A DNA stretch of 64,000 nucleotides from a virus: positions 62,001 to 126,000 of IMG/VR virus record IMGVR_UViG_3300047496_000430; one strand, given 5' to 3'. The position numbers and the translations under genes are program-made. The notes under the pieces are model-generated. The model saw nothing but the letters and a program-made list of their open reading frames with translations. It was not told the DNA's origin and searched no databases. Position 1 is the first letter of the stretch. Each line of letters begins with the position of its first letter. Shown in pieces: positions 15,839 to 49,365 of this stretch.

Positions 15839-16744
15839 TTAGTCGGTCACACCCATCCAGGGCTGCGGGAACAAATTAGGCCAGTTCTCCACAGCCACGC
15901 GCCGCAACGTACGCGCGAAGCGTTGAATCTCCAAATCGGCCGCGTTGTCCGCGCGTTCCTGAACCATTTTTGCGATGGCCATGGGATTTGTGGTCCACAC
16001 AAAACTAGTCTCGGCCTGGTGCGGGAGGAAGCTCGAGGCCGCTTCGTAGATGCGCTTCTTGTCGAGGCTCGTCGGCTTCTTACCGTGCTTCTCTTCGAAC
16101 GCCAGGACCTCCTGGTTCACCGCCATGCAGTAGGCGTCGTAGGAGGTCTGCATGGCGCGCTCGAAGTGGTCTTGCATCCACTGCGCGTCCGGTGTCGCCT
16201 CGTCCAAGTACCGCGGCGGCATGATGAAGAAGCCGTAGTGGTGTGTGAAGCGCGTCGACTCCTGCGACGGACTGCCCTCCTCGTCGCGGTCGGCACCGAC
16301 GTAGTTGCGGATGATTTCGTGGCTCACTCGGCGCGAGATGCCCCCGAAGAAGAACGACATCTTCGCGTGGTAGAGGATGCTCGAGTGCTTCACCGGGCCG
16401 GACTGTGTGTGCTGGATGTACTCCTTGTTGCCCTTCTTGCCGGCCTTGAGCCCGAAGCTGTCGTAGCACTTGCGGCCCGCGAGCTCGACGAGGAGCTCAT
16501 TCGCCGTGAGCCCGCGCGAGAGCGTCGCACCGCCCTCCTGCTGCGGAGGCACCTCCTCTTCCAGGTCGTGCGGGAAGAGTGCCTTCCAGTTCGAGGCGTC
16601 GTCGGGAAGGCACTCCGGACGGTGGTCTCCCACCCAGCCCATCATCTGCTCGATGCCAAGCGGCATCAGCGACATCTGCGCGATGGGGACAACGGTGGGG
16701 GCGGCGGTGAGGATGGTGACTTTCTTTACGAGCTCTTCGGACAT
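15839..16744 (-). CDS. thyX: Flavin-dependent thymidylate synthase ThyX (divergent)
   Basis: Makes dTMP from dUMP using FAD and methylene-tetrahydrofolate. The protein (301 aa) has the ThyX core 'GISRRVSHEIIRN' and 'PSQESTRF', corresponding to the E-x-S-x-R-[YF] end of the signature, plus 'AETSFVWTTNP'. The canonical RHR triplet reads R146-N147-Y148 here and a six-residue acidic insertion (around 152-157, DRDEEG) separates it from the Ser-Gln-Glu-Ser part. The N-terminal 70 residues are longer than usual. Candidate promoter B lies 34 nt upstream. It may keep activity with altered substrate contacts, which is inference. Confidence 0.85.
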   Translation of the reverse strand: MSEELVKKVTILTAAPTVVPIAQMSLMPLGIEQMMGWVGDHRPECLPDDASNWKALFPHDLEEEVPPQQEGGATLSRGLTANELLVELAGRKCYDSFGLKAGKKGNKEYIQHTQSGPVKHSSILYHAKMSFFFGGISRRVSHEIIRNYVGADRDEEGSPSQESTRFTHHYGFFIMPPRYLDEATPDAQWMQDHFERAMQTSYDAYCMAVNQEVLAFEEKHGKKPTSLDKKRIYEAASSFLPHQAETSFVWTTNPMAIAKMVQERADNAADLEIQRFARTLRRVAVENWPNLFPQPWMGVTD

Positions 16745-16777: not shown

Positions 16778-16806
16778 CTTATCCCACGAAGCTCAGTACC
16801 CTTGCG
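16778..16806 (-). promoter_or_regulatory. Candidate phage promoter B, before thyX
   Basis: On the minus strand, CGCAAG (16806-16801), a 17-nt spacer and GATAAG (16783-16778) precede the thyX ATG by 33 nt. The boxes differ by one base from those of promoter A at 3258-3286. The upstream box overlaps the end of the previous gene. An AGGAGG ribosome site follows at about 16749-16754. Confidence 0.55.
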
Positions 16807-17200
16807 GGTAGTAGCCGTATTGCTGCATCGGCGGCTGGGTGAGTGCGCGTTTACCAGCGGAGTAGGCGCGCCCGGCGACTGTGCCGACGAGCGGAGCAGC
16901 CCAACGACTGCCCAGCGCTTTACCGACCGCCGGCGAGATGTGCCCCGCCTGCGCGAGGTAGCGACCGAGATGCTCGAGGCCCTTCGTGGCGGCAACCCCG
17001 GAGACCATCCCACCAAGCGTGTCGCCACGGTCCGAGGACAAGCCACCGGTGGCCGCACCAACGGTCGCTCCTGGGTGTGCCGCCGCGAGCTCGACGCCCT
17101 TGCCGAGCAGGGCGCCGATGTCCACTCCTTCGCGCTCCGCGGCCTCCTTGGCAATGTGGCCGAGCTCGTCCAAGAACGCTGCGTAGTTGATGCGGGTCAT
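16793..17200 (-). CDS. Gly/Ala-rich protein with N-terminal AF-x-DEL motif, 135 aa
   Basis: The N-terminus reads 'MTRINYAAFLDELGHIAKEA', a terminal motif shared with the adjacent helicase and the pyrophosphatase-like protein at 24 kb. The rest is Gly/Ala-rich with possible weak membrane-inserting helices ('GATVGAATGGL', 'WAAPLVGTVAGRAYSAG') and a Tyr/Gln-rich C-terminus. No enzyme motif is present. The start ATG overlaps the helicase stop (ATGA). A virion internal or membrane-penetrating protein is possible; this is inference from the motif and composition. Confidence 0.65.
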   Translation of the reverse strand: MTRINYAAFLDELGHIAKEAAEREGVDIGALLGKGVELAAAHPGATVGAATGGLSSDRGDTLGGMVSGVAATKGLEHLGRYLAQAGHISPAVGKALGSRWAAPLVGTVAGRAYSAGKRALTQPPMQQYGYYPQGY

Positions 17201-18663
17201 GCAGTCCTCTGTTGTGGGAGTAGCTCGCGGAACTGACCAATGAGGTCTTCTTTTTCTTTCGACCGCAGCGCGAGGTACTCGTCTGCGGACAATCCTGGGC
17301 TGCCGATGCCATGGCGCTGGAAGAAGTTCTTGGGGCGCTGCGCGAGGTAGCGCTCGATGAGCACCTTCTGCTCCTCCGGCGGCAGGCCCGAGTGGCTCAT
17401 GTAGCGCGCGCCGCGGCCCTCGACCTGCTTCAACTTCTCAGCATTCCAGTGCGGCTCGAGGAGCTGCATCAAGCGCGTACCCTTCAGGTCGAGACCCTCA
17501 CCCCCGGCCGATGAGAGAAGAAGCGCCCTCAGCTTCCCTTCGTTGTAGTCGCGAACGAGTTGCTGGCGCGCGGCGTCTGGCATCTCGCCCGTGAACTCGC
17601 CGTAAGGAATCTTCGCCGCTTCGAGGCGGCGCTTGTACGGCGCGATGCCTGACTGCAGGTAGTTCGAGTAGACGACAGCCTTGGCGCGCGGGTTGTCGCC
17701 GAGCGTCTTCTGGAGACGCTGGAAGGCCATGTCGATTTTCGGCTCCTCTGCGCTTCCGCCTTCAGGCTGGAAGGGTGCTGTGCTGTTGGTGGTCTGACGC
17801 ACGGCATTCAGGAATGCGTTCAGCTCCGACACCTCGCGCTTGTTGGGCGGGAGCCCCTGCTTCACTTTCTCGATGATGTGTCGAGGTGCCGTCTCCGCCA
17901 GCGCGTCGTAGATGCCGACCTGCTTGCGCGTCATCGGAACGTGGACATCTTGCCGCGTGACCTCGGGGAAGTTCTCCGTCGACCCTGGATGGAAGTCTGT
18001 CCACTTGCCGTAGATTTCGCGCAGCTCACGCGCTTTCCGAGGGTTGAGCACGTCGCGCTCTCCGGGCTGGACCCCGCGAAACACACGGTCCACGAAGCCC
18101 GGCTTCTGGACCTGCGTGGTCACGTACTTAGAATTGAACGCGCGTTCGTCGGCAGGGAGCACATTCTCGCCGGCGGCGATGTTCACCAGCTGTGACAAGT
18201 CACTGGGTCGGTTGTAGAAGGGACTGCCGGTGAGCAGCAGACGCTTCTGCGCATCGCTGTCCGCGACCGCCTTCGCGCCCTTCCCACCGCTCTCTCGAAG
18301 GCGATGCGCCTCATCGACGATGAGCATCGGGTTTGCCGGCAAGGACCCGCGGCGCGCGGCCATCTGTAGCGTCGCAAGCTCTGCTGGCTGCGACTCTCCT
18401 GTCAGGTGCTTGGCGCGCTCCTTCTCATAGTTCTCCCGCAGTGCCGCGGGTACAACGACGGTTGCCGGCATCCGGAGAGCGTCCTGCGCCGCGATGGACG
18501 TGAGCGTCTTGCCTGACCCGAGACCGTGAATGGCGACAAGGCCCGGTTGGTCTTCCCGCTGAAGGCGCGACACGACGCGCTGCTGATGCGGCAGCAACGT
18601 CGTGGTGACCTCTGCAATCTTCGCGAGCTCGTCAGCGAAGGCGGCCAGCAGCACAGCGTTCAT
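17197..18663 (-). CDS. SNF2-type superfamily 2 helicase with N-terminal AF-x-DEL motif
   Basis: Complete 488-aa helicase. Motif I is 'HGLGSGKT' (46-53), motif II 'VDEAH' (116-120), motif III 'LLLTGSPF', motif V 'SSAGGEGLDL', and motif VI 'QVEGRGARYMSH'. The layout resembles SNF2-like NTPases found in virions or in large co-injected phage proteins, and it is smaller than chromatin remodellers. The first 20 residues carry 'LAAFADELAKIAEV'. It lies next to tail genes, not replication genes, which suggests a protein delivered with the genome. ATG start shares one base with the upstream stop. Confidence 0.85.
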   Translation of the reverse strand: MNAVLLAAFADELAKIAEVTTTLLPHQQRVVSRLQREDQPGLVAIHGLGSGKTLTSIAAQDALRMPATVVVPAALRENYEKERAKHLTGESQPAELATLQMAARRGSLPANPMLIVDEAHRLRESGGKGAKAVADSDAQKRLLLTGSPFYNRPSDLSQLVNIAAGENVLPADERAFNSKYVTTQVQKPGFVDRVFRGVQPGERDVLNPRKARELREIYGKWTDFHPGSTENFPEVTRQDVHVPMTRKQVGIYDALAETAPRHIIEKVKQGLPPNKREVSELNAFLNAVRQTTNSTAPFQPEGGSAEEPKIDMAFQRLQKTLGDNPRAKAVVYSNYLQSGIAPYKRRLEAAKIPYGEFTGEMPDAARQQLVRDYNEGKLRALLLSSAGGEGLDLKGTRLMQLLEPHWNAEKLKQVEGRGARYMSHSGLPPEEQKVLIERYLAQRPKNFFQRHGIGSPGLSADEYLALRSKEKEDLIGQFRELLPQQRTA

Positions 18664-19058
18664 CAGGGCTCCTCGGGCGGGGGCGGAGTTGAGTCACCCG
18701 GGAGGGCGATGTTCCACTTTTGCAGTACCGCGAACGAGAGCACGCGGTAGCCCCAACCAGAGAACCACCCAGTCCCGAGCCCGTACAGCAAGCGCGAGAC
18801 CGTTTGAGCAACGACAGCCGGGTACGGAAAGAAGGCGGGAGACACGCACCCGCAGAAGAGAAGTCCCAGGAACGCGGGGAGCGTGGGAAGCACGACACCT
18901 TCCCAGATGCGCTGTACGCGCGTGGTCGGCGTCTTCGACGACAACCCAGGCCACAAGGCCTCGCAGTACTTGCGGATGGTGAAGGATACGATGAAGAGTC
19001 CGAGCGCCAGAAGTGCGGTCGGAAGAACCAGGATGTCCTCGAGCTGATTCATCTTCAT
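18663..19058 (-). CDS. Membrane protein, 131 aa, possible holin
   Basis: Three hydrophobic segments are visible ('LPTALLALGLFIVSFTI', 'LPTLPAFLGLLFCGCV' and a third around 'LLYGLGTGWF'), with a proline-rich acidic C-terminal tail. Size and topology fit a class I holin, and no other holin is evident, but the lysozyme genes are 26-31 kb away, so the assignment is weak. ATG with AGGAGATGA ribosome site. Confidence 0.6.
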   Translation of the reverse strand: MKMNQLEDILVLPTALLALGLFIVSFTIRKYCEALWPGLSSKTPTTRVQRIWEGVVLPTLPAFLGLLFCGCVSPAFFPYPAVVAQTVSRLLYGLGTGWFSGWGYRVLSFAVLQKWNIALPGDSTPPPPEEP

Positions 19059-19155
19059 CTCCTGGCTCGGCTGGGAAGCGTAGAATCACTTCCGCAGCTC
19101 TGTGCCCTACGCTAGGGTCGACTGTACCTGAACGGAAAAACGGAGACCACCTCGC
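19059..19155. other. Divergent intergenic region with CCCTA-CGC-TAGGG repeat
   Basis: About 100 bp between two divergently transcribed genes. It holds a perfect 5-bp inverted repeat, CCCTA and TAGGG, around CGC (19105-19117). No sigma-70 promoter or copy of the GCAA/ATAAG boxes is evident. It should contain promoters for both directions, but I cannot define them. Confidence 0.4.
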
Positions 19156-19713
19156 ATGACCCACGACCCGAGTGCTGTTTTGGGACCGCTGGCTCCTTGC
19201 TCTGAAGCCCTCGTGTGGACGCTGCAATTCCCGACGCTGGAGGCTGCCAACGCAGCCATCACGGACCCGCGCTGGATGCTGTGGTTCTACACTACGGTAT
19301 CGTTCGGAAAGACCACGAGTCCACGCCTCCTGGTAGGCACGCTGCAGAAGCTGCTCAGCCTGCAAGTGAAAGAGCTGCCGCCCGCGGTCGGCGCGCTCTT
19401 CACCAGCGCCCTTACAGGCCTCGACGTCTACGCGCGCGGCGGAAATGTCCCCACACCCGACGCGCAGCTCCCCGCGAATGCCTGCACGGGCGCTCGAGGA
19501 AAAGGAGACGTGCAGACGGCTGCGAACATCGGCCGCGCCATCCTACAGGCACAACGCATCGCCAGTGCCTCGACACTCATCGTCGCCAACGCTGCGGCGC
19601 TCACCTTCGCCAAGATGCTCGTCCTCATCTGCGGTACCGACGCCGCAGCGAGTGCAGTGCTGAAGAGCTTCTTCCCCGATGACGTCTGGACCGCCCTCGT
19701 AGACGCGAGCTGA
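19156..19713 (+). CDS. Hypothetical protein, 185 aa (plus-strand pair, first gene)
   Basis: Not recognised. The protein is Ala/Leu/Thr-rich and helical, with two cysteines. It is transcribed against its neighbours together with the next gene, forming a two-gene island inside the leftward structural region. The ATG has GGAGACC upstream. No signal peptide or membrane helix is clear, although the C-terminal 'TLIVANAAALTFAKMLVLICG' is hydrophobic. Confidence 0.65.
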   Translation: MTHDPSAVLGPLAPCSEALVWTLQFPTLEAANAAITDPRWMLWFYTTVSFGKTTSPRLLVGTLQKLLSLQVKELPPAVGALFTSALTGLDVYARGGNVPTPDAQLPANACTGARGKGDVQTAANIGRAILQAQRIASASTLIVANAAALTFAKMLVLICGTDAAASAVLKSFFPDDVWTALVDAS

Positions 19714-19715
19714 AC

Positions 19716-20324
19716 ATGGCCCTTCAAAAAGACAACTGGCTGACATTTCTCGCGCAGAACCCTGACCTCGCGACCGACTGGGCGAAGCAACAGGACGGCG
19801 TGCTCTCCGCTTGGCAAAACGCCAACAGCGGTCCTTGGCTCTTGGACCTGACCTTCACCCTCGTCACCGACATGGCAACGCGCAACAGCATTCTGCTTGC
19901 GCTCGCTGACGTCATCGCAGCCGAGGACTGGACCGTGAAGGATGAGGGACTGAAGACCTACTTCTTGAAGCTGCTCACGGCGCTGCGCCTGCATCTCGCG
20001 AGCAACGTCGATGGTGGTCTTTCCCTCGCACGCGCACGTAAAGCGCATGCGCAGCTCGACTTCAAGAAGACGGATGCGAGCGAGATGTTCGCGCTCAACG
20101 CGCTATTTCATCTCGCAGCTGCCGCGCTTGAGACAACCACGCGCGTCTCCCCGCAAGTGCAAAGCGTGCTCGGCGCACTTGTCATGCTCCTCATCCGCAC
20201 TGGCCGCTGGACGGGCGTCTGTGACGGCCCGGCCCAGCTGCAGAAGAGCGCGGACGTACTGCGTGGTGCCCTGGCAGCGTACGCAGCAACGCTGCCCGCG
20301 CTCGCAGACAAGAGGACGTTCTAG
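19716..20324 (+). CDS. Hypothetical protein, 202 aa (plus-strand pair, second gene)
   Basis: Follows the previous gene by two bases. It is helical, Leu/Ala-rich and has no recognised motif. Both proteins of this island are similar in size and composition, which may hint at a shared complex. It ends four bases inside the convergent gene at 20321. Confidence 0.65.
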   Translation: MALQKDNWLTFLAQNPDLATDWAKQQDGVLSAWQNANSGPWLLDLTFTLVTDMATRNSILLALADVIAAEDWTVKDEGLKTYFLKLLTALRLHLASNVDGGLSLARARKAHAQLDFKKTDASEMFALNALFHLAAAALETTTRVSPQVQSVLGALVMLLIRTGRWTGVCDGPAQLQKSADVLRGALAAYAATLPALADKRTF

Positions 20325-21028
20325 TAGTCCGGTGCCGACATCGGGATGACGATGATGTGCATCACCGCGCCGACGTGACAGAGCGCACCACCCCAAGAAC
20401 CGGAAATGCCGAGCGCGAAACGGTCAGCACTTCCACCAAGCCCTGTCGTGAAGGGCATGTTGAACAGTGACGGCGTGCCCTTGCCGAACATGAGGTTTTG
20501 CTTCTGTTGGAAGGGCGCGGCGTCGACACCCGCAGGGAAGAACTGCGAGCGTCCCGCAACGTTTGGCGTCCACTGCGTATCGGTGACAGAGACGATGTCC
20601 CATCCTGCGTCTGCGCCGGGAATGGAGTCCGCCCAGAGTTGGTCGGCTTGTCCGAGCGCGGAGGTAACGGCATCGAATCGAAAGTCGACGTCGCCCCCGA
20701 CTGCGCCCGTTGTGACATCCAAGTAGAAGACTTCGAGGTACGCGCCGAGAATTGCGTAGGTCACCCCCGAGACGGGACGCCAGAGCTGCACGCGGTGAAC
20801 AGTCCCGTCCAGCGCCGCCGTATACGAGAGGGGGCAGTGGAGGGCAGTAAGGCTGCTCCCATCAGCAAAGAGGTTTGCGTTCGACGTCCACACATCGAAC
20901 GTAGTGCCCGGCGCAGAGGAGTCGTATGGCGTCGCAAGGTCGCCAGGCCACCCCGTGATGAGCAGGTCCTGGTCTTCGCCGGCGTAGTCCTGAAGCGGGA
21001 TGGCGGCTGTGCGAACTCGACGAGACAT
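20321..21028 (-). CDS. Virion structural protein, probable, 235 aa
   Basis: The frame extends to a TTG at 21040, but TTGGAG is itself the ribosome site for the ATG at 21028, so the start is placed there. The protein is beta-rich with many Gly/Ala/Asp turns ('SAPGTTFDVWTSNANL') and no enzyme motif, typical of tail or decoration proteins. It is the last gene of the leftward tail cluster. Confidence 0.65.
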   Translation of the reverse strand: MSRRVRTAAIPLQDYAGEDQDLLITGWPGDLATPYDSSAPGTTFDVWTSNANLFADGSSLTALHCPLSYTAALDGTVHRVQLWRPVSGVTYAILGAYLEVFYLDVTTGAVGGDVDFRFDAVTSALGQADQLWADSIPGADAGWDIVSVTDTQWTPNVAGRSQFFPAGVDAAPFQQKQNLMFGKGTPSLFNMPFTTGLGGSADRFALGISGSWGGALCHVGAVMHIIVIPMSAPDY

Positions 21029-21040
21029 GGTGCGCTCCAA

Positions 21041-23290
21041 TCACTCGGTGTAGCGGGTAACCGACCAGAAGACGCGGTCCTTGGCGACCACTCCCTCATA
21101 GACGTCCCAATAGTACGTGGCGGCGCCATCTCCGATGGGCGACAAAAGGGCATCGGTTCCGCTGAAGACCGAGGTGTAGCCCGTGACCGTGAAGCTCACG
21201 CCGTTGACGCGGCTGGTGTTCGTTCGGCGGATGGCGACAGTGAGCCGTCCCGAGTCGTAGTTGATGCCTGACGTGGATGCGTACGCAAAGTTGTTGAAAG
21301 TCATCCCGACGGTGCTTGCGCCCACCGGGTTGGTGCCATCGAGCAGCCACCGAATGATGCCGCCGTTACTGCCCGATGTCGCCAGGTTGATGACGGGCGC
21401 ACTACCCCCCGTCACTTCGTGAAGGCCCGACCGAATAAAGGCGACGTCGAGCCCTTTGGTGACCTCGAAGCCATCCTTGGCGAGCGGCACATGTGCACCA
21501 CTGCTGTTGAACTCCACCGCCCCGTCAAAATTGGCGGCGCCGTGTGCCGTGAGCGTTCCAAAAACGTCGAGCGTGTCTTGGACCGATACCGCTGAAGAGG
21601 GACCGAAGGTCGCATTGCCGAAGACATCTAGCGCGCCGAGGATGTTGGCACTGCCGTCACCCAGCAAGTAGCTGTACTCGATGTACTTGAAGCCAGAAGC
21701 GATGCCGCCGGACTGGTTGTAGCCGCCCCATGCGAAGGCCGCGCTGGTGCCGTCATCGCTGCGCGCAAAGAAGCGCGCGTACTCACTGTCGTTGACCGCT
21801 GAGACAGAGGCGTTCGGCAGCGAGGACCAGAAGAATCCACGGAAGTCCGTCGTCGGAGCAGGAAGGCCGAGCTTGAGCGCTCGGTAGCCTGCACCGCCGT
21901 CCGACGTGAACATCTCTGTACGCACCCACTCAACGATGGTTGCTGCCGTCGCCGGCGGGAAGTTCGGCGTCGAACCGTCGAGGAAAGCCATCGTGCCGGC
22001 AAGCGCGCTCGACAACGAGAGCATCGTCACGTTGTAGAGCACGCCTCCGACGTTCAATCGGATGATGTCGACGCCCTGCGCAAAGGCAGACATCGGCACG
22101 AGGCTCTCGAGGATGTAGAAGTGGTCGTTCGGACCGTTGAGCACCAACCCTGCGGCGTTGAGAGTCACTGAGGCGCCAGCACTGAGAACGGTGCGCGTCG
22201 TCAACGAAGCGCCCGTCGTCACGCGCCGAGAGCCGGCGTAGAAGCCGAACATTCCAGGTGTGTTGAGGAAGGGCTCTGTCTCCGTCGTGATGCGCCCGCC
22301 AAGAGCCACGAAGCCCGCCGAAACAGCTGCGCGGTCACCCGCCGCGGCGACGGCGACCTGGTCTTGTAGGACAGAGCCCCAAAGACCTCCGAGGACGTGC
22401 TCGCTGGTACCGAAGGATGTCGGTCCTGCCGACGCGATGGTGGAATAGCCGGTGACTCCGGGCCCTCCTGCCGTCGTGCGTGTGAACCAGCCTCCAGCAC
22501 CCGCCGTATCGAGGGCATTTGCTGCGGGGTGGTACGCGGGGTAGCCGACATCCTTCGCTGTCGCGTGTCTGTAGCGCTCGTCGAGACCTCCCCACGCGAG
22601 GTCATAGAGCGTGGTCGTCGGCGCCGCGTTCCACGGGATGCCCGCTGAGATGGGCCCCTGGATGGCGGCGAAGACCTCTTCGACCTGCGCATCAACAGCA
22701 ATGGTGCTGCGGATGCGCATCGTAGTGAGGAAGTCTGCCGGCAGCGTCGCGAGGTTCGTACGTTCGCCGTAGTAGAGGCTGTAGAGCGTCGTGTCGGGGA
22801 TGGAGAGGTTGAACGTGACGGTGACGTTACCCAGCGAGAAGCCCCCGCCGACGACGACGAGGCCGGAGTCGACCGCGGACGTCACGACGACCTTCGTGCC
22901 CCCGACGACGATGTCGTCGCCGTTCTGGTCGGTCAGGTGAAAGAGGTCCTCAAGCGTATCGCCGATGCCGCCCATGAAGACGCCGGGACCGGTGATGAGG
23001 ATGCTCGGAACGGGGCCCACCGCCGTGCCGTCGAGACGCACAGGAAGCGCCAAATCGCGATGCATCAGGTCATCGAGGAAGTCGGTGTTCTGTGCAAGCG
23101 CGAGCGCAGGACGATTCGCATCAGCGCTCGTCGCGTCCTCCCCGAAGGCGATGAAGTACGAGCCAACGTTCGGTCCACCGCCCTTCTGTCCGTCTGCAAA
23201 TGCGGGTGTGCCGGAGACTGCGTTGTTGATGTAGTCGTACCCGCCAGGGAGACCACCGAAGTAACTCGGAATTGCCAGCCGATGGAACAT
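21041..23290 (-). CDS. Tail fibre or baseplate structural protein, 749 aa
   Basis: Large beta-rich protein with many Gly, Ala, Thr and Ser residues. Near residues 570-620 there is a short repetitive stretch alternating 'LDVFGNATFG', 'LDVFGTLTAHG' and 'ANFDGAVEF', each unit about 16-19 residues, typical of beta-helical or fibre-shaft repeats. No peptidase or chaperone domain is recognised at the C-terminus. It lies 12 nt downstream of the 216-aa gene. Confidence 0.7.
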   Translation of the reverse strand: MFHRLAIPSYFGGLPGGYDYINNAVSGTPAFADGQKGGGPNVGSYFIAFGEDATSADANRPALALAQNTDFLDDLMHRDLALPVRLDGTAVGPVPSILITGPGVFMGGIGDTLEDLFHLTDQNGDDIVVGGTKVVVTSAVDSGLVVVGGGFSLGNVTVTFNLSIPDTTLYSLYYGERTNLATLPADFLTTMRIRSTIAVDAQVEEVFAAIQGPISAGIPWNAAPTTTLYDLAWGGLDERYRHATAKDVGYPAYHPAANALDTAGAGGWFTRTTAGGPGVTGYSTIASAGPTSFGTSEHVLGGLWGSVLQDQVAVAAAGDRAAVSAGFVALGGRITTETEPFLNTPGMFGFYAGSRRVTTGASLTTRTVLSAGASVTLNAAGLVLNGPNDHFYILESLVPMSAFAQGVDIIRLNVGGVLYNVTMLSLSSALAGTMAFLDGSTPNFPPATAATIVEWVRTEMFTSDGGAGYRALKLGLPAPTTDFRGFFWSSLPNASVSAVNDSEYARFFARSDDGTSAAFAWGGYNQSGGIASGFKYIEYSYLLGDGSANILGALDVFGNATFGPSSAVSVQDTLDVFGTLTAHGAANFDGAVEFNSSGAHVPLAKDGFEVTKGLDVAFIRSGLHEVTGGSAPVINLATSGSNGGIIRWLLDGTNPVGASTVGMTFNNFAYASTSGINYDSGRLTVAIRRTNTSRVNGVSFTVTGYTSVFSGTDALLSPIGDGAATYYWDVYEGVVAKDRVFWSVTRYTE

Positions 23291-23302
23291 GGAGGTCTCC
23301 CG

Positions 23303-23953
23303 TCAGAAGCGAATCGTCCACGCGACCTCGAGCTGAAAAGCCGAGGTCTTACTGAGCGTATCGAACGTGTCGTAGGCGATGCCCGTGTTGTTGTACACGT
23401 TGGGATTCGCCACAGCTGTGACGAGAAGAATCTCGGACAGCGGCACCGTGAGGAACGGATTGTAGCTGACGTCCAGCTGCCCGAAGAGGCGACTGAAGGT
23501 CACCTGCGTCGACGTCACGTGCACCGGAGGCGCCTGCACCTGCCCGAGCCACACGTCTGGCGCGAGACCAGGATAGGGGGCTGAAGAACCCGAGATGCGC
23601 ACTGGGCGTTCGAGACTGGTGACGGTTGGGTCGGTGTCCGTCTGGAGATTCGAGCCGGGGTACGCCGTGACGAGTGGCGGCGCGTTTGCTGTCGTGAGTG
23701 CGAGTTGCTGCGTCCCGCCGATGCCGAGACCCATGTACTTCACACGGTCGTTGCGCTCAGGAACGTCTGGACCGAACGACGTGTAGCCCAGCAAGCTCGC
23801 AAGGTACTCGCGCCCGAGATTGAGCCAGATGTTGTGGCCTTCACGCCGCTGGACAATCTTCCCGCGCTCGCGCGCGATGATGCTGAGGTTGTTGCGAACC
23901 TCGATGTCCGTGGCGGTCGAGTAGCGAATGCCCCTGCGGCGTTTCGTCGTCAT
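23303..23953 (-). CDS. Virion structural protein, probable, 216 aa
   Basis: A basic N-terminus (first eight residues MTTKRRRG) is followed by a beta-rich body with 'NDRVKYMGLGIGG' and 'SRLFGQLDVSYNP', similar in style to tail or baseplate proteins. The ATG overlaps the stop of the next upstream gene by one base. No specific family recognised. Confidence 0.65.
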   Translation of the reverse strand: MTTKRRRGIRYSTATDIEVRNNLSIIARERGKIVQRREGHNIWLNLGREYLASLLGYTSFGPDVPERNDRVKYMGLGIGGTQQLALTTANAPPLVTAYPGSNLQTDTDPTVTSLERPVRISGSSAPYPGLAPDVWLGQVQAPPVHVTSTQVTFSRLFGQLDVSYNPFLTVPLSEILLVTAVANPNVYNNTGIAYDTFDTLSKTSAFQLEVAWTIRF

Positions 23954-24432
23954 CAGACGCTCCCTTGCGCGAGTCTACCGAGTTCGTCGAAGAACGCCGA
24001 GAGCGACGCTCCGGAGATTTTGACGAGGGGCTTCTTCTCCGCCACCAGCGCCTTCAAGCGGTCGATGGGGACCTGCGAGATGGGCCCGAGGAACTTCGGG
24101 TCGTTGTAGTGCGCGAGGTAGAGCTTCTTCGCCTCCTCTTCGCTGCGTACACCCAAAATCACCTTGTCTTCGTCGTAACCCTTGCCGGTGTGCTTGTGCT
24201 GATGGACGACGAAAGCGTGCGGGGCGTCTTTCACCGGACCGACGTAGGCGTCTACTTCTTCTCCATCGGCACCGCGCGTTCCCTGGATGTAGCCGTAAGG
24301 CGCTTTCATCACGGTTCGCCACGGCTTCCCATCGCGGTCGACACCGGAGCGCACCGAGCCCTTCCGATTCTCAATGGCGATGCGTAGCCCTTGGTGTGTC
24401 GTGTGGCCGTGAAGTTTGTGCTCTTTAGACAT
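23953..24432 (-). CDS. Inorganic pyrophosphatase-like (InPase) domain protein with C-terminal AF-x-DEL motif
   Basis: The body matches the InPase domain described in phage polyvalent proteins: 'APYGYIQGTRGADGEEVDAY' then 'VGP', 'VVHQHKHTGKGYDEDKVILG', and an 'EEAKKLYLAHY' helix. In polyvalent proteins this domain is part of co-injected proteins thought to protect incoming DNA. Here it stands alone (159 aa) and ends 'LSAFFDELGRLAQGSV', the terminal motif shared with the 135-aa protein and the SNF2 helicase. It lies between tail genes. The catalytic role (pyrophosphate or nucleotide hydrolysis) is uncertain. Confidence 0.75.
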   Translation of the reverse strand: MSKEHKLHGHTTHQGLRIAIENRKGSVRSGVDRDGKPWRTVMKAPYGYIQGTRGADGEEVDAYVGPVKDAPHAFVVHQHKHTGKGYDEDKVILGVRSEEEAKKLYLAHYNDPKFLGPISQVPIDRLKALVAEKKPLVKISGASLSAFFDELGRLAQGSV

Positions 24433-43086: not shown

Positions 43087-43917
43087 TCAGACGGCACCTA
43101 GCGCTTCTGCGCTCTGCTGGACGGTCTTCAGGTTGTCTTCGAGGGACTTGATGGTCTTCTGGGCTTCGTCGAGGAGGGACACCACCCTCTCCAGGTTCTG
43201 TGTGCCGAGCTCGTTGTTGCGGAGGAGCAGGAGGAACATCTCCTCGAGGTCAGAGCGCTCAATAGTCTTGAGGGTCTCTTCGCCGCGTTTCTCGGTCTCC
43301 TGCGGGAGCAGCGCGTACGCCGCGCTGAAGCGCTGCTGGAGTGCGCAAAGCAAGTCGGCCTCGTCAGGTGAGTAGCCATAGCCGCCACCTTCGGGGTCGT
43401 GCTGGATGGCCGCTAGCAGCTCATAGAACTCCTCCTGCGCGAGGTCGTCATCACTCGTACCGCGCGCAATGGAGATGTTCAGCTGGTCAACGACCTCGTT
43501 TTTCTCATCACGGTCCCCCTCGAAGTCGTCACGAGCAAGGTCCGCAACCTGGTCGTCGCGCACGGATTTCAAGTACTCGAGCGCGTGGTACGGGTGCCAT
43601 ACCCTGCGCAGGAACTTCTCGCAGAGGTAGTCTTCACCAAGCTGGCCAGCGAACCACTCAAGGCCGTAACCAAAATCACTGATGACGCCGTTCTTACAAC
43701 TTCGCACGGAGACGTCACCAACAATGACGATGCCTTCGGGCGAGAAGATGAAGCACGTGGTCAGCATCCGACGACCTGGGCGCGTGCCGCGCAGCGTCAC
43801 GTCCGGCGGATGAAGGTAGAAAATGCGCGTGCCCGCGACGAGGGCAGGCACTTCAGTCAGAACATGCTTTTCGAGCAGACGCCGCGTCGAGGCGTGAACG
43901 AAACTACTACTTGCCAT
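43087..43917 (-). CDS. Hypothetical protein, 276 aa
   Basis: The N-terminal 130 residues look like a beta-rich domain ('TTCFIFSPEGIVIVGDVSVR') and the C-terminal part a long coiled coil ('LDEAQKTIKSLEDNLKTVQQ'). Acidic overall. No catalytic motif or signal peptide. Overlaps the upstream gene by 11 bases. Confidence 0.7.
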   Translation of the reverse strand: MASSSFVHASTRRLLEKHVLTEVPALVAGTRIFYLHPPDVTLRGTRPGRRMLTTCFIFSPEGIVIVGDVSVRSCKNGVISDFGYGLEWFAGQLGEDYLCEKFLRRVWHPYHALEYLKSVRDDQVADLARDDFEGDRDEKNEVVDQLNISIARGTSDDDLAQEEFYELLAAIQHDPEGGGYGYSPDEADLLCALQQRFSAAYALLPQETEKRGEETLKTIERSDLEEMFLLLLRNNELGTQNLERVVSLLDEAQKTIKSLEDNLKTVQQSAEALGAV

Positions 43918-44308
43918 CCAGGTCTCCGATGCGTTGCTCCATCATGTACTTCTCCGTGCAGAGGGCATCAGCGCAGACACTGCCTACCGCTCGTCGGTGT
44001 GTCTTCCAGTACCGTGCGGTGCACCGCGCCACTGCTTGATGCCCAGAGGTCTCGGCTGCGTGCGCGGTCCAGTCTTCAACGGCTGCGAGCTTCCAGGTGC
44101 CGCTGGCGTGGTGGAAGAACGGCCAAACTTTCAGCTCATCGCGAACGCGCACGAGGACATCGCTTTCCTCGTACGGCATCTCCGCCCTGTACCAGAACGG
44201 CCACTTGCCGTTCGTGATGTATTCCCAGAGGTAGTACTCCGCCCAGCCGCCGCCTCCGTACGCGCCGATGAGCTCAATGGCGCGCACAACATCCGGGTGA
44301 TTCTCCAT
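43907..44308 (-). CDS. Hypothetical protein, 133 aa, first gene after promoter E
   Basis: The frame is open further upstream, but the ATG at 44308 has GGAAAGGA at normal spacing. The Trp/Tyr/Gly-rich region 'GWAEYYLWEYITNGKWPFWYR' is broken by short turns; the C-terminal part has two cysteines. No family recognised. Its leader holds an inverted repeat and candidate promoter E. Confidence 0.65.
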   Translation of the reverse strand: MENHPDVVRAIELIGAYGGGGWAEYYLWEYITNGKWPFWYRAEMPYEESDVLVRVRDELKVWPFFHHASGTWKLAAVEDWTAHAAETSGHQAVARCTARYWKTHRRAVGSVCADALCTEKYMMEQRIGDLDGK

Positions 44309-44319
44309 CTCAGTCCTTT

Positions 44320-44373
44320 CCGTAGGGAGTGCCCCGCCAAGGGACTTATGCCCCCTACGGGAGTCTGTTTTCC
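44320..44373 (-). promoter_or_regulatory. Candidate promoter E with overlapping inverted repeat
   Basis: On the minus strand CATAAG (44350-44345) lies 17 nt after GGAAAA (44373-44368), a weaker match to the shared box pair. The downstream box ends 36 nt before the start codon. The arms CCGTAGGG (44320-44327) and CCCTACGG (44353-44360) form a perfect inverted repeat that overlaps the spacer and leader. The repeat could be an operator or an RNA hairpin before the ribosome site. Confidence 0.45.
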
Positions 44374-44381
44374 TGTGAGCG

Positions 44382-44570
44382 TCAGGGCTTCCACGTGGGC
44401 GGTACATACGTCCACGGCAAGGTCAACTTCGTGAATTCGTCCAGCTCCGCCGTCAGCTGCCTCTGCAACGCCGCGCGCTCACGAATGAGCCCGAACGTTG
44501 GAGAAGGTGCCGTAGCGATGCGCTTGTCGAGCTCACAAAGTTGAACCGCACGTGTGTCGATGATGCTCAT
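44382..44570 (-). CDS. Small hypothetical protein, 62 aa
   Basis: Helical protein ('AALQRQLTAELDEFTKL') with a Pro/Trp-rich C-terminal tail. AGGAGAG lies before the ATG. It ends 21 bases from the inverted repeat of promoter E. Unknown family. Confidence 0.6.
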   Translation of the reverse strand: MSIIDTRAVQLCELDKRIATAPSPTFGLIRERAALQRQLTAELDEFTKLTLPWTYVPPTWKP

Positions 44571-44614
44571 GGAAACACTCTCCTGGATGTCGTGTCAGCG
44601 CGCTGAAATGAGGA

Positions 44615-45298
44615 CTACTTGCACTGCTCCCCACGGAGCCAGCGCGCCTTCAAGTCGCCCAGGGTGCCCCGGAACCAGCTGAAGTCTGCGTCGACGCCGT
44701 TGGGCAGAGCGAGGCCACCGTCACCGTCGAACTGCCAGGCTGCGGCAGCGAGCCACGGCTTGGGGACGGTCGGAGCCGTGATGTTCGCGTACTGGGCCAC
44801 CCAGAGGTCGCAGTGCGTTGCGATGTCGGCCATGCGCGCCGGCGCAGCTTCGTAGAGCATCTGGATGAAGTACACGTACGAGTAGAAGATGGGAGGGGTG
44901 CCCCACAGGTCGATGGTCTTGTTGATGAAGACCTGGAGGCGAAGCACTGCGTCCGCAGGCGCCACGCCGCCGATGGTCTCGAAGTCGACCACCGGCTTCA
45001 TCTTGACCAGCTTCTCGGTGGTCGCAGCGTAGTGCGTGGCCTGCCCCACCGCATCGAACTTCGGGTTGAAGAAGTGGTAGCTGCCAACGACCTCGAGGGC
45101 CTGGTCGGCACGGTGCTGATTCTGGAAGAAGAGCGGGTCGATGTAGCCCGTCCCTTCCGTGGCCTTGATGATGGCGAACTGAACTCCGGCCTTCGTCTTC
45201 AGTGCATCGAAGTCGACGACCCCCTGGTTATCGGATGTATCGACACCCAGGGTCCAGCCCTCGTGTACAGGGTATTTGGTGGAGTTCAGCTGCGTCAT
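44615..45298 (-). CDS. GH25 endolysin (lysozyme)
   Basis: Hydrolyses the glycan strands of peptidoglycan. Start placed at ATG 45298 because AAGGAGC sits seven bases before it; a TTG six bases upstream is less likely. The protein (227 aa) shows the GH25 layout: 'GVDTSDNQGVVDF' (D20), 'GVQFAIIKATEGTG', 'VGSYHFFNP', the catalytic D-F-E at 105-107 in 'PVVDFETIG', and 'LWVAQYAN'. No signal peptide, so a holin is needed for access to the wall. Neighbours the lipoprotein gene. Confidence 0.93.
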   Translation of the reverse strand: MTQLNSTKYPVHEGWTLGVDTSDNQGVVDFDALKTKAGVQFAIIKATEGTGYIDPLFFQNQHRADQALEVVGSYHFFNPKFDAVGQATHYAATTEKLVKMKPVVDFETIGGVAPADAVLRLQVFINKTIDLWGTPPIFYSYVYFIQMLYEAAPARMADIATHCDLWVAQYANITAPTVPKPWLAAAAWQFDGDGGLALPNGVDADFSWFRGTLGDLKARWLRGEQCK

Positions 45299-45314
45299 GG
45301 TCAAGCTCCTTGGT

Positions 45315-45824
45315 TCACTTCGCCGTGGCGTTCACGCGCGAACGCTGCACCAGCTTGAGCGAAACCTGAAGCTCGGGGAAGCCAAGCGGTTCAGGGGGCG
45401 CAACAGAAGCAGAACCGACGGTCGCCGACGCGGGCACCTTGGTCTTCAGGTCATTGACAATGGCGACAACTTTCGTGACCGCGTCGGTGACATCGCCGAT
45501 GAGCTTCGAGAAGTCCGGGTTGGGGGTCTGCGCCTCGAGGGCTGCCTGGACTCCGTCGTCTAGCGCGCCCAGCGCGGTGTTCACCGCCAGGACGGCCTTG
45601 TTGTAGTCGGCCTGTGCCGTGACGAGTTCCGCTGCCGGCAAATAGACCTTCAAGCTGTTCCAGGCGACGTCGGCGATGCCGAGTGTGATGCGCGCCCCCT
45701 CCTCGAACGTCTGCACCTGCGCGACGGGATTGTTCTTGAAGTTCTGCCACCACGCCGCACCACACGCAGGAGTGACGCAGACGGTAGTGACGAGGAGCGA
45801 GAGCGCAACGAGCTTCTTCAACAT
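45315..45824 (-). CDS. Lipoprotein, 169 aa, next to the endolysin
   Basis: ATG at 45824 with GGAGACTCC; the upstream extension is a shadow of the exonuclease gene. The signal 'MLKKLVALSLLVTTVCVTPAC' is too long to quote in full, but its lipobox ends TPAC before the mature Gly-Ala-Ala. The mature part is helical ('AVLAVNTALGALDDGVQAAL'). Position beside the lysozyme suggests a lysis or envelope role, and an outer-membrane spanin-like role is conceivable but unproven. Confidence 0.7.
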   Translation of the reverse strand: MLKKLVALSLLVTTVCVTPACGAAWWQNFKNNPVAQVQTFEEGARITLGIADVAWNSLKVYLPAAELVTAQADYNKAVLAVNTALGALDDGVQAALEAQTPNPDFSKLIGDVTDAVTKVVAIVNDLKTKVPASATVGSASVAPPEPLGFPELQVSLKLVQRSRVNATAK

Positions 45825-45834
45825 GGAGTCTCCT

Positions 45835-46437
45835 TCAACGACCGAACCGCGAACGGTTCGCGTACTCCGCCTGCCCCAAGAGCTCGCGGAATGCGGACTC
45901 TTCGGCAGGGAAATTCCTAACCTTGTGCATCGCCAAGAAGATGTTGCCTGCGGTGCGCGCATCCACGGCGGCACGATGCGCATCTTCCTGCGCGACACCG
46001 TAGCGCCCGGCGACGTCGCCGAGCTTGTTGACCCGCGCGTTGTCGAAGTAGCGCGCGAGCTGCAGCGTGCACGCAGTCATGGAGGGGCTCAGCGCGCTGT
46101 GGCCCAACCGTGCGAGCTCCTGGTTGAGCATCTTCAGGTCAAACTCGGCGTTGTGCGCGACCCAGAGCGCGGACGCGAGCTCGAGCTGGAGCTCCATCAC
46201 GATGTCTGCGAAGTCAGGCTTGCCCTCGAGGTCCGCCACGTTGATGTGGTTGATGGCGAGCGCCTCCTGGACGCGAGAGTTGCCCCAGTCGACGTTCTTC
46301 GGCTTCAGGAGCCGCGACCACTCGTTGACGACCTGTCCCCCTTCGAAGGTGACCACCGCCACTTCGAGGATGCGCGCTTCGGGGCCGAAGCCCGTGGTTT
46401 CCGTATCGATGGCGACGAAGCTGTCGTGATAGTTCAT
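45835..46437 (-). CDS. DnaQ-like 3'-5' exonuclease (DEDDh)
   Basis: Start at ATG 46437. Exo I is 'VAIDTETTGFG' (D11, E13), Exo II has 'HNAEFDLKML', and Exo III carries the His-Asp pair in 'HRAAVDARTAG'. These are the DEDDh family residues, as in the epsilon subunit of Pol III or RNase T/exonuclease X proteins. The phage polymerase has its own proofreading domain, so this 200-aa enzyme probably acts in repair or RNA/DNA turnover. Confidence 0.9.
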   Translation of the reverse strand: MNYHDSFVAIDTETTGFGPEARILEVAVVTFEGGQVVNEWSRLLKPKNVDWGNSRVQEALAINHINVADLEGKPDFADIVMELQLELASALWVAHNAEFDLKMLNQELARLGHSALSPSMTACTLQLARYFDNARVNKLGDVAGRYGVAQEDAHRAAVDARTAGNIFLAMHKVRNFPAEESAFRELLGQAEYANRSRFGR

Positions 46438-46445
46438 CGGCTCTC

Positions 46446-46988
46446 TCAACTGGCACGCGGAGGCAATAGCTCCAGGTGCTCGGTGTTCTGTTTGTGCACG
46501 CCACGACGTTTGCAACGGCGACAGCGTCCGCCTCTGTCTGCGTCTGCACGAATCTCAAACATCTCGCGCGCGGCGCGAAGCATGCTGGCATCTCCTGGAA
46601 CAACACCCATCGCGCGCTCGGTGAGCGTGATGCCCAACTCGACGTCGTTGTTGCCGGCCAAGAAGGCGCTGGCGTACGTCGCACCGAGACGGAAGGGAAG
46701 TGAGTCTTCGTTCAGCGCGCGCAGCACACGCTCATGGAACCGGGGTAAGTCCTGACAGCACGCCGCGCCGATGATGAGGTGCAGCGGCTCAAGCGAGCGA
46801 GTACCGCGCAGTCCCTGAAGAATCGCCCCTCTCAATGCGTCGAAGCCGTGCCGCCTGTGAAGCGCAGCTGCCGCGTTGAGCGCGATGTACCGCTTTGCGT
46901 GGTCCTCGCCGAGAGTCCCATCTTGTTTTCGCAGCTCATACCAGTGCTGCAGGACGCAGAGCAGCCGGGGGACGAACGACTCGGCCAT
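46446..46988 (-). CDS. Hypothetical protein, 180 aa, TPR-like helices and C-terminal CxxC
   Basis: Repeated helical pairs ('ALNAAAALHRRHGFDALRGA', 'LHLIIGAACCQDLPRF') recall helical repeat proteins. The C-terminal 'GRCRRCKRRGVHKQ' gives a CxxC in a basic context that may bind nucleic acid or zinc. It lies eight bases upstream of the exonuclease gene. Function unknown. Confidence 0.65.
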   Translation of the reverse strand: MAESFVPRLLCVLQHWYELRKQDGTLGEDHAKRYIALNAAAALHRRHGFDALRGAILQGLRGTRSLEPLHLIIGAACCQDLPRFHERVLRALNEDSLPFRLGATYASAFLAGNNDVELGITLTERAMGVVPGDASMLRAAREMFEIRADADRGGRCRRCKRRGVHKQNTEHLELLPPRAS

Positions 46989-47030
46989 GTGGACGGGCGG
47001 AGCCTACTGCGTCGGGAATCTGGGGGATAG

Positions 47031-47062
47031 AAAGACAGGCGCACCCCGCAGGGCACGCCCAC
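47031..47062 (-). terminator. Possible terminator after the winged-helix-like gene
   Basis: On the minus strand a hairpin is formed by GGCG and CGCC with an inner GGG-CCC pair around a four-base loop and a symmetric CA internal loop, followed by TGTCTTTCT. It is moderate in quality. It would end the operon that starts at 49.3 kb. Confidence 0.4.
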
Positions 47063-47065
47063 CTC

Positions 47066-47353
47066 TCACAGCGCGCTGAAGAGGACCGAGGGTCCTGGCG
47101 TGCGCGAGATGACCTTCTTGGCTACCAAGCGCCGAAGGCGGCCACGCAAACTGCCCGAGTCGATGGTAGTACCGAGTGCCTGTGCGAGGTCACGTGTCGA
47201 GGAGAAGGGCTTTTTCTTGATGGCCTCGATGATGGCCTTCTCGGTGACGCGCGGTGCCTTGTATGGATGCCGAGGGTCTTTCGGCAGCGGGGTCGCGACG
47301 GTCGCGTTCGAGGTCTTCGGAGCAGTCGCTTGGCGGTTGTTCTGGTAGCTCAT
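47066..47353 (-). CDS. Winged-helix-like DNA-binding protein, 95 aa
   Basis: Start at ATG 47353. The N-terminus 'MSYQNNRQATAPKT' is flexible and resembles that of the gene at 49986. The C-terminal 60 residues ('TEKAIIEAIKKKPFSSTRDL', 'GSLRGRLRRLVAKKVISRT') fit a winged helix: two helices, a recognition helix and a wing. A small transcription or DNA-binding regulator is likely, but the specific function is unknown. Confidence 0.6.
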   Translation of the reverse strand: MSYQNNRQATAPKTSNATVATPLPKDPRHPYKAPRVTEKAIIEAIKKKPFSSTRDLAQALGTTIDSGSLRGRLRRLVAKKVISRTPGPSVLFSAL

Positions 47354-47405
47354 CTCGCTGTCCCTCCTGAGACGAGAAGAGTTGTTCCGCACCTTCTTCT
47401 TCTCG

Positions 47406-47639
47406 TCAAGGACTTCTTTCGCCCAGAACCTCGAGACCGAGCCACTGACGCCCCGCGTCTGTTGCGTGATACGTCGCACCGACCGACGAAGCGCCCACTT
47501 CCTGCACGAATCCCTTATTCTTCAGCGCCAACGTCGTCGCGTTGAAGAGGGCGTAGAGCCCCGCTGGTCGTGCCGACTTGCGCAGGAACGTCTCTTGCGT
47601 GCCGCTCAACTGCTCCTTCTTCTGACCCTTCGCCATCAT
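47406..47639 (-). CDS. Small hypothetical protein, 77 aa
   Basis: Starts at a double ATG with CAGGAGAA. The protein contains 'GLYALFNATTLALKNKGFV' and 'VGATYHATDAGRQWLGL', which resemble a winged-helix with a beta hairpin. Unrecognised otherwise. It overlaps the zinc-ribbon gene upstream by four bases. Confidence 0.6.
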   Translation of the reverse strand: MMAKGQKKEQLSGTQETFLRKSARPAGLYALFNATTLALKNKGFVQEVGASSVGATYHATDAGRQWLGLEVLGERSP

Positions 47640-47839
47640 TTCTCCTGAACATAGAAGTTCGACTCACCCTCGGGACACTCGCTTTTGAGAAGCATGAGGC
47701 ACCGCGTGATGCTGCGCTCGCCGGTACCGAACGACTCGGTGCAGTGGTCGCAGCGACTGCACTTCACACGAACGCCGGGCTGCTCGCCACCGCGGTCGTT
47801 CTCAACCATCACCTCTTCGACTTCGCACTCAACCTTCAC
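47636..47839 (-). CDS. Small zinc-binding protein, 67 aa
   Basis: GTG start at 47839 in a GTGA overlap; the longer frame upstream is a shadow. The start 'VKVECEVEEVMVEND' and 'RVKCSRCDHCTESFGTGERS' are followed by 'RCLMLLKSECP'. The CxxC-x2-C pattern and the two later cysteines probably bind one zinc. Function unknown. Confidence 0.7.
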   Translation of the reverse strand: MKVECEVEEVMVENDRGGEQPGVRVKCSRCDHCTESFGTGERSITRCLMLLKSECPEGESNFYVQEK

Positions 47840-48084
47840 GACTTCCTCTTTTTCTTGTCTTGCGCGTGGTGGCAGTCGAAGCACCAACGGTAGCGCGACT
47901 TCTTCTTGCAGCTGACGCACTTGTGTTCGGCGCGCTTCGGCGTCGGCGTGATGTCTAACGCAGCGAACTTCCCGAGCACCGTGCGTAAGGCGAGCTGACG
48001 TTCCACCGAGGTATTGGGTAGGACACGGCTGAGAGCCCAGACGACCTCCTGGGCCTCGGCCACGGTGAGGTTGAGCTGCTTCAT
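47836..48084 (-). CDS. Small zinc-ribbon protein, 82 aa
   Basis: N-terminal helical half ('LTVAEAQEVVWALSRVL') and C-terminal zinc finger 'KCVSCKKKSRYRWCFDCHH', then a strongly basic tail, consistent with nucleic-acid binding. Overlaps both neighbours by four bases. Confidence 0.7.
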   Translation of the reverse strand: MKQLNLTVAEAQEVVWALSRVLPNTSVERQLALRTVLGKFAALDITPTPKRAEHKCVSCKKKSRYRWCFDCHHAQDKKKRKS

Positions 48085-48362
48085 GTACCGGCAGGCCTCG
48101 GTGGCAGGAGGTGCCGCGTGAAGGAGGTCTGCTTCAGACGCATCCGAATGTGCTCACCCATGTACCAGCCCAACAGCGCCTGTGACGCAGCACGCATTGC
48201 CGGCGTTCGCCATCGATACGCCACCTGCACTGTGAGGCGTCCGAGCGGCATGCGCAAGAAGGCACGGGTCGCGTGCTTCAGTTGCGAAAGCGTCTTCGGG
48301 GCAAGTGGAGGTTTGGGGGCTACGAGGCGATGAAAGAGGTCATTGAGCGCGTTGGCGGGCAC
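48081..48362 (-). CDS. Hypothetical basic protein, 93 aa
   Basis: A GTG at 48362 with GGAGG is the most plausible start. The protein is basic and helical, with many Arg and Leu ('ATRAFLRMPLGRLTVQVAYR'), and has no cysteines. It may bind nucleic acid. Family unknown. Confidence 0.6.
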   Translation of the reverse strand: MPANALNDLFHRLVAPKPPLAPKTLSQLKHATRAFLRMPLGRLTVQVAYRWRTPAMRAASQALLGWYMGEHIRMRLKQTSFTRHLLPPRPAGT

Positions 48363-48540
48363 GGAGCCTCCTGAAGGCAGCGTTCTCGTCCATCCGACGA
48401 ATCTTCGCATCGATGACCGCGATGGCAGTCTGGTGACCGGCCTTGCTGTCGAGCAGCTCGCAGCGGGCACACTTCGACCAGGAGTACACCTCCTTGCGAA
48501 GAATCGGCTTGTCGCAGCGACTACATTTGCCCGCGACCAT
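48340..48540 (-). CDS. Small zinc-ribbon protein, 66 aa
   Basis: Starts at ATG 48540 in a TGATG overlap. 'GKCSRCDKPILRKEVYSWSK' then 'CARCELLD' gives two CxxC pairs, 19 residues apart. The C-terminal helix is basic ('FRRLRARQRAQ'). Function unknown. Confidence 0.7.
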   Translation of the reverse strand: MVAGKCSRCDKPILRKEVYSWSKCARCELLDSKAGHQTAIAVIDAKIRRMDENAAFRRLRARQRAQ

Positions 48541-49028
48541 CACGACTTCTTCTTTCCGCTGCGCGCTTTGTACGGTTGGAAGGTCAGCTTCATCGCCTCT
48601 AGCTCTCGCGGCTTCCAGAAAGTCGACCCGTTGGTCACGCGGAACTGTGCCTGGGAAGAGGGGCGCCACACGTCCCCTTGCTTGTCGTACCACGTCAACG
48701 GTTCACCCTCTGGAGTGAATAGCGGACTGAAGTGCACGTTGAATTTGTCGAACAGCTGGATGTCGACGCGGGGGTGAGGCACGCATTTCCGACAGACGTC
48801 GTTCTGGTAGAACTCGAGCAACTCGTTGAACTTCCCCGTCACCGGGAGCGTGCGTAGAGCGAGCAGGTCGAAGAAGGACATCTCGACGCTGCACGCAGGA
48901 CACGTGACTTGGGGCTTGTTCCACTCCAACACGTTGGCCAGCCGCAGCTGCGTCTCGACGGGCGCGCCCTCGTTCAAGATGACGCGAATCTCGAGCTCGA
49001 CGACTTCACCACTGCACTTGTTGCTCAT
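48540..49028 (-). CDS. Hypothetical zinc protein, 162 aa
   Basis: Cysteines in 'VTCPACSVEM' and 'NDVCRKCVPHP' make a likely zinc site. The C-terminal half has 'FDKFNVHFSPLFTPEG' and 'GDVWRPSSQAQFRV', a beta-rich domain. Overlaps its neighbours by four bases or fewer. No family recognised. Confidence 0.65.
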   Translation of the reverse strand: MSNKCSGEVVELEIRVILNEGAPVETQLRLANVLEWNKPQVTCPACSVEMSFFDLLALRTLPVTGKFNELLEFYQNDVCRKCVPHPRVDIQLFDKFNVHFSPLFTPEGEPLTWYDKQGDVWRPSSQAQFRVTNGSTFWKPRELEAMKLTFQPYKARSGKKKS

Positions 49029-49276
49029 CGCCCACGCCTCTGTGTCCGTCCGTCCGCATCTGCGGAGTCAGCGCCGTCTTGCGGAAACGCGCGCAACAGC
49101 AGGCCGTCGTTCCATGACAACGTCACACCGACGTTGAGTCTGACGGCCAGTGAGCCGTCGCGATTCAGCCAGCAAACACCGAGGCGATTGCCGTGCTTCG
49201 CGTTGCCGAGACGGCCCATCAACACGTGCGTCGGCTTGGTCGAAGTCTGGTCATCGTCACCGAAATCTACTGCCAT
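49025..49276 (-). CDS. Small hypothetical protein, 83 aa, first gene after promoter C
   Basis: Beta-rich: 'THVLMGRLGNAKHGNRLGVC' and 'GSLAVRLNVGVTLSWNDG', with an acidic N-terminus and a basic tail. It looks like a compact beta-barrel. GGAGAAGAAG precedes the ATG, and candidate promoter C lies 36 nt upstream. Confidence 0.65.
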   Translation of the reverse strand: MAVDFGDDDQTSTKPTHVLMGRLGNAKHGNRLGVCWLNRDGSLAVRLNVGVTLSWNDGLLLRAFPQDGADSADADGRTQRRGR

Positions 49277-49311
49277 CTTCTTCTCCTCTGGGCGATTCTT
49301 CCGCCCCTACT

Positions 49312-49340: not shown

Positions 49341-49365
49341 AGAACCAGTGGCTACGGTGCGCGCC

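Follow-up and report, generated by a model that had tools for sequence, protein, structure and literature searches.

The stretch of DNA analysed here, which we call the window, comprises 64,000 nucleotides (bases 62001-126000) of a viral genome of 177,425 bases held in IMG/VR as record IMGVR_UViG_3300047496_000430 (G000 in what follows). It encodes a 135-residue protein that matches no Pfam family, a SNF2-type helicase and a protein with an inorganic pyrophosphatase (InPase) domain, and each of the three carries at one of its ends a variant of the motif AFxDELxx[IL]A, hereafter the tag (Table 1). An original prediction had pointed to a terminal motif common to these three proteins and had read it as an addressing signal for packaging; the motif is present in all three, at the ends that it had named. 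It had also placed all three genes among tail genes. This holds for the InPase gene, which lies amid tail and baseplate genes, but not for the genes of the 135-residue protein and the helicase, which are found at the edge of the block, directly adjoining the gene of a ThyX-type thymidylate synthase. The link between tag and tail genes is weak, and the relevant partner is the head-assembly module.

Table 1 Tagged proteins, their tags and two further genes of G000 (window positions unless marked G000)
Feature	Position	Strand	Basis
135-residue protein, Gly-rich middle, N-terminal tag	16793..17200	minus	open reading frame and motif
Tag AFLDELGHIA, N-terminal, on 135-residue protein	17179-17150	minus	
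SNF2-type helicase, 488 residues, N-terminal tag	17197..18663	minus	PF00176, PF00271 (SNF2/Helicase_C)
Tag AFADELAKIA, N-terminal, on SNF2 helicase	18642-18613	minus	
InPase domain protein, 159 residues, C-terminal tag	23953..24432	minus	InPase PF18823, E 1.5e-41
Tag AFFDELGRLA, C-terminal, 4 residues from end, on InPase protein	23997-23968	minus	
Four further N-terminal tags	G000 57900, 151619, 162722, 163239		genome scan
RNA polymerase frame, beta/beta-prime, 2193 residues	G000 43222-49803 (L003:5222-11803)		
ThyX-type thymidylate synthase gene	15839-16744		

A terminal tag across a large phage lineage

When all frames of at least 60 codons in G000 were scanned, seven matches to AFxDELxx[IL]A were obtained, six of them strict and one with Ser in place of the last Ala. 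All seven lie at protein ends and on one strand, six N-terminally and one C-terminally, while from amino acid composition 0.0009 strict matches would be expected over the 54,600 residues of called proteins. The single C-terminal copy, that of the InPase protein, is not accidental, since InPase homologs retain a degenerate F-x-[DE]-E-L-x-x-I at the matching C-terminal place.

A degenerate-codon scan of IMG/VR for AFxDELxKIA returned at least 119 stretches, compared with 43 in all for the reversed peptide, a control of identical composition and degeneracy. The great majority of the forward matches lie a few residues past a start codon, often several per contig and mainly on large contigs. We then scanned 25 whole records by codons with the looser pattern F-x-D-E-[LMIFV]-x-x-I-[AS], which avoids selection on the K and the first A, and obtained 118 matches, 2-9 per record, against none for the reversed control in any of the 25; since the records were picked for carrying at least one strict match, these per-record counts do not constitute a census of phages. 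In 111 of the 118 cases (one duplicate row removed) an in-frame start lies 3-16 codons upstream, with a mode of 8. With gene starts assigned by rule, 94% of tags have a start of any kind upstream and 78% an ATG; F residues taken at random from these sequences give 48% and 23%. The majority of tags are N-terminal and a small share C-terminal. With FxDEL as the sole basis of selection, K occupies position 6 in 152 of 171 tags and A occupies position 8 in 134, although most of these loci had been fetched by K-I-A. The strand of the capsid gene is shared by 111 of the 118 matches, which is weak evidence because about 79% of the coding sequence of G000 lies on that strand.

That the motif is independent of the domain it accompanies, as had been proposed, is confirmed by the proteins themselves: grouped by the sequence behind the tag, the 149 tagged proteins of the fetched loci form 110 clusters. 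The domains recognised include SNF2 helicase, GNAT acetyltransferase, permuted papain-like amidase (C92), MazG-like and glyoxalase-like domains and Gly-zippers; most of the proteins match no family, and the tagged helicase recurs in several genomes. One tagged protein of 219 residues (G000 150981-151640, L006:7981-8640) contains the segments YRG, SSWSTSE and EGEYLI, which look to the eye like those of an R-S-E ADP-ribosyltransferase, but its membership in the class of T4 Alt was not confirmed, sequence searches of Pfam, PHROGs and the PDB being empty and the structural model unusable (pLDDT 43). Another locus, L187 (IMGVR_UViG_3300042731_004843, frame ~2001-2411), encodes a 1013-residue fusion of SNF2 helicase, InPase and a JAB-like module, which are separate tagged proteins in G000, with linkers resembling K-S-A and K-I-A in between.

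The tagged records share more than the tag. A common capsid protein family is present in 25 of 25, at 29 to 86% identity to G000, as is an RNA polymerase with beta and beta-prime domains in a single frame, mostly of 1,900 to 2,500 residues; the frame of G000 has its counterpart in 24 of the 24 other tagged records (one split across the record ends), the comparison having been run on records selected for the tag. There may be overlap between this lineage and the RNAP-encoding Caudovirales described by Weinheimer and Aylward (PMC7481178). The records searched include no cultured phage with the tag: it did not turn up in whole-record pattern scans of phage Arash, Pseudanabaena phage PA-SR01, Vibrio phage D69 and Bacillus phage G, and a search of cultured phages with a 20-residue tag consensus gave no match, the query being too short for significance.

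The residues flanking the tag are matched within genomes. Once proteins whose bodies resemble one another are left out, the six residues ahead of the F have a mean BLOSUM62 score of 7.57 within genomes versus -0.32 between them (0 of 200 permutations), and the matching still holds (0 of 500 permutations) after removal of the five most homogeneous genomes; conservation of the core residues L, K, I and A is the same throughout. Such matching of flanks within genomes suggests a receptor that co-evolves with the tag and varies between genomes, or else local copying of leaders. In G024 (L372, L373), six genes stand in two clusters and five have nearly the same leader, MNxFEFGFFDELxKIA, which is a recent local spread of the tag.

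The tag end and the prohead core

Between the terminase and capsid genes of these phages lie five families of head-core proteins, and all of them are rich in the pattern hydrophobic-x-K-x-A (h-x-K-x-A), a pattern first noticed in head proteins of Arash and afterwards tested in other genomes. Observed versus shuffled counts are 83/18 in a scaffold-like family of 257 residues, and 80/17, 139/32, 119/13 and 23/3.5 in core families of 453, 575, 356 and 121 residues, a 4- to 9-fold enrichment; the shuffles ignore protein-family relatedness, so that z-scores overstate the independent evidence, but the effect sizes are unaffected by this. No enrichment was seen in TerL (2/4) or in another neighbour (3/3), and variants with R or E, or reversed, were not comparably enriched, with one exception, h-x-K-x-E in the capsid family (67/10), which stems from a conserved capsid stretch. 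For G000 itself, the head module contains 29 sites against 6.2 shuffled and the tail proteins of the window 3 against 1.9. Because the pattern is enriched in core proteins and not in terminase or tail, the L-x-K-I-A in which the tag ends looks like the site of the lineage's prohead protease.

A candidate for this protease is the 575-residue protein, whose family comprises at least 560 IMG/VR loci. H118 (HHxNK) and S174 (VSMG) are invariant in all aligned homologs, and so is a K-x-A at about residue 30, a feature that a protease removing its own leader would be expected to have. Sequence-profile searches with the protein matched nothing, but for an AlphaFold model of its domain (pLDDT 77.5) the two best PDB matches are T4 gp21 (5jbl, chains A and B), with probabilities of 0.91 and 0.77 and the next at 0.14; with an E-value of 0.013 and low TM-scores, the likeness to gp21 is supportive, not conclusive.

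The InPase domain connects this candidate protease to the tag. Of the 13 records among the 25 that have the domain, six carry it inside the protein of the 575-residue family, with K-x-A sites around it (G003, G011, G013, G014, G016, G017), and six have it tagged at one end, either as a separate protein with a C-terminal tag (G000, G005, G018, G022, the latter two degenerate) or behind an N-terminal one (G015, G019); in G009 it is neither tagged nor fused. A second copy is present in G003, in a frame of 758 residues. Packaging of phage InPase domains has been proposed by Iyer et al. (PMC5512222), with reference to a portal-protein fusion. In some genomes (G013, G016, G017) the head operon itself moreover encodes, between the scaffold-like and 453-residue genes, a small protein that has the tag and an NY[ST]xV box.

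A cultured relative adds virion data. The virion proteome of Salmonella phage Arash comprises 116 proteins identified by mass spectrometry (PMC10585845), and Gp217, a helicase to which the tagged helicase is 39% identical in an alignment starting at its residue 23, is represented by 38 unique peptides and 1148 spectra, compared with 1333 spectra for the capsid protein (PMC10585845). Gp217 begins at the helicase domain and does not have the tagged extension. The capsid protein and polymerase of Arash are related to those of the lineage, yet there is no tag, and its h-x-K-x-A sites number 82 in virion proteins against 49 +- 7 shuffled and 25 against 26 in non-virion proteins.

A probable capsid targeting sequence and its rivals

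The addressing signal of the original prediction is supported. Occurrence at chance frequency, which that prediction had named as a refutation, is contradicted by the 118 matches against none for the reversed control. The head is the predicted destination: the L-x-K-x-A that the tag shares with the core proteins, the tagged protein of the head operon, the six InPase-protease fusions and the virion helicase of Arash all point there. We consider it likely that AFxDELxKIA is a capsid targeting sequence, directed to the prohead core, of one large phage lineage. The steps that we infer from the sequence regularities observed, from docking at the core through cleavage and packaging to ejection, would run as follows. 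An amphipathic helix with the core x-F-x-D-E-L-x-x-I would dock the protein onto the prohead scaffold or core, or onto the inner shell, and the shell would then close around the docked cargo. Cuts by the protease at K-x-A sites would dismantle the core and take off N-terminal tags, so that a leader of about 13-25 residues ending in L-x-K-I-A would be lost during head maturation, while the cargo would remain in the head with the DNA and be ejected into the next host cell. We lean somewhat towards a broader version, in which a near-universal address of two parts, a docking helix and a maturation-protease site at either terminus, defines the injected set of the lineage, with cargo domains shifting between tagged and protease-fused forms and each genome matching the flanks to its own receptor.

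Several observations weigh against a targeting sequence of this kind. Arash packages its helicase untagged, and the tag therefore cannot be the sole route into the virion; and the structural match to gp21 is modest. In the capsid protein, which may carry the same cleavage site, the N-terminal K-x-A is kept in 20 of the 23 homologs found, is imperfect at P5 and is absent in three distant records. C-terminal tags mostly have no K-x-A, and cleavage would therefore apply at best to N-terminal tags, which suggests that docking and cutting are separable functions.

One could also imagine that the tag docks onto another virion assembly, chiefly the giant virion-type RNA polymerase or the tail, and rides along, its likeness to the protease site being secondary. 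All tagged records do encode the polymerase, the helicase gene of Arash follows its beta-prime gene, with both products abundant in virions, and many of the tagged genes are located away from the head operon; we nevertheless regard this as unlikely, given that the tag shares with the head-core proteins an enriched pattern for which TerL and tail proteins show no enrichment, that InPase is fused to the protease and not to polymerase or tail, and that one tagged gene is inside the head operon. An intracellular address or stability signal on unpackaged proteins, involving a membrane, a replication compartment or a host factor, is a rather improbable reading: amphipathic terminal helices generally serve such roles, and matched flanks indicate merely some co-evolving receptor, but the match to the protease site, the InPase-protease fusions and the abundance of the helicase in Arash virions would be left unexplained. 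It is very improbable that the tag has no targeting role and marks the spread of one mobile leader through duplication and recombination of genes. Near-identical leaders such as MNHFEFGFFDELxKIA do recur in some genomes, but the core residues F, D, E, L, K, I and A persist down to about 29% capsid identity as the surroundings change, and C-terminal versions exist. Chance likeness of short amphipathic helices accounts for a few single matches, such as one in transketolase (L068), rejected as a coincidence inside a conserved enzyme, but as a general explanation it is hardly credible and fails against both the empty reversed control and the composition expectation, which are set against seven strict or near matches, all terminal.

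Among known systems, the cargo-loading peptides of encapsulins are likewise short, terminal and found on unrelated cargo, and dock to a shell of the HK97 fold; these are, however, not phage heads and have no maturation protease. A close parallel to the proposed capsid targeting sequence of the present lineage is that of T4, where a leader of 10-20 N-terminal residues on IPI-III and Alt associates with the prohead core, is removed by gp21 and can package foreign proteins (PMC5694885, PMC3012670). Both involve a short N-terminal leader of similar (here predicted) length on diverse cargo and a gp21-like enzyme, in our case a candidate. The code, however, is F-x-D-E-L-x-K-I-A with h-x-K-x-A here, whereas the T4-type site ends in E, and the present tag is also found C-terminally, is near-invariant across a large lineage and marks cargo some of which occurs instead in direct fusion with the protease protein. 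In SPN3US and phiKZ, propeptides of packaged head proteins are cut by a gp21-like protease and have been proposed to target the prohead, and core proteins have many protease sites each, as predicted here (PMC5694885, PMC10052503); those propeptides, however, mostly span 111-254 residues (two have 20-24), and the descriptions mention no one docking motif common to unrelated proteins. The N-terminal region of P1 DarB, a protein packaged in the virion, sends a reporter to the capsid (PMC9024508), as reported for one protein, in contrast to a short motif on many unrelated ones. The polyvalent proteins of Iyer et al. 2017 (PMC5512222) comprise the same set of domains including InPase and are thought to be packaged and injected, and relatives in the present lineage similarly fuse helicase, InPase and other cargo modules in one protein; the accessible portions of that paper describe no shared address tag. 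Full-text literature searches found neither the motif string nor a lineage-wide tag of this kind. Nor did we come across a published prohead-protease code for this lineage.

If the tag is a capsid targeting sequence, one short pattern would reveal the injected proteins of uncultured phages from sequence, over hundreds of genomes, and would lead to novel proteins of host takeover and anti-defence in a lineage where nearly all tagged proteins are functionally unassigned. It would also be a ready means of bringing foreign proteins into large phage heads, and h-x-K-x-A would be the predicted prohead-protease code of the lineage.

Relatives of the candidate protease gene

Relatives of the candidate head protease are also encoded on contigs of bacterial metagenome-assembled genomes, L375 (Deltaproteobacteria), L377 (Dependentiae) and L378 (Bilophila). 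No tags were found in 17-kb stretches of these three contigs, and the GTDB contigs were uninformative for host assignment; the relative on L375, 58% identical over nearly its full length, is a weak host hint. In two tagged records the gp21-like protease gene is interrupted by inteins with Hint, intein-splicing and LAGLIDADG domains (L197:3037-5862 in G005 and L198:1250-6274 in G006), at least two of them in G006.

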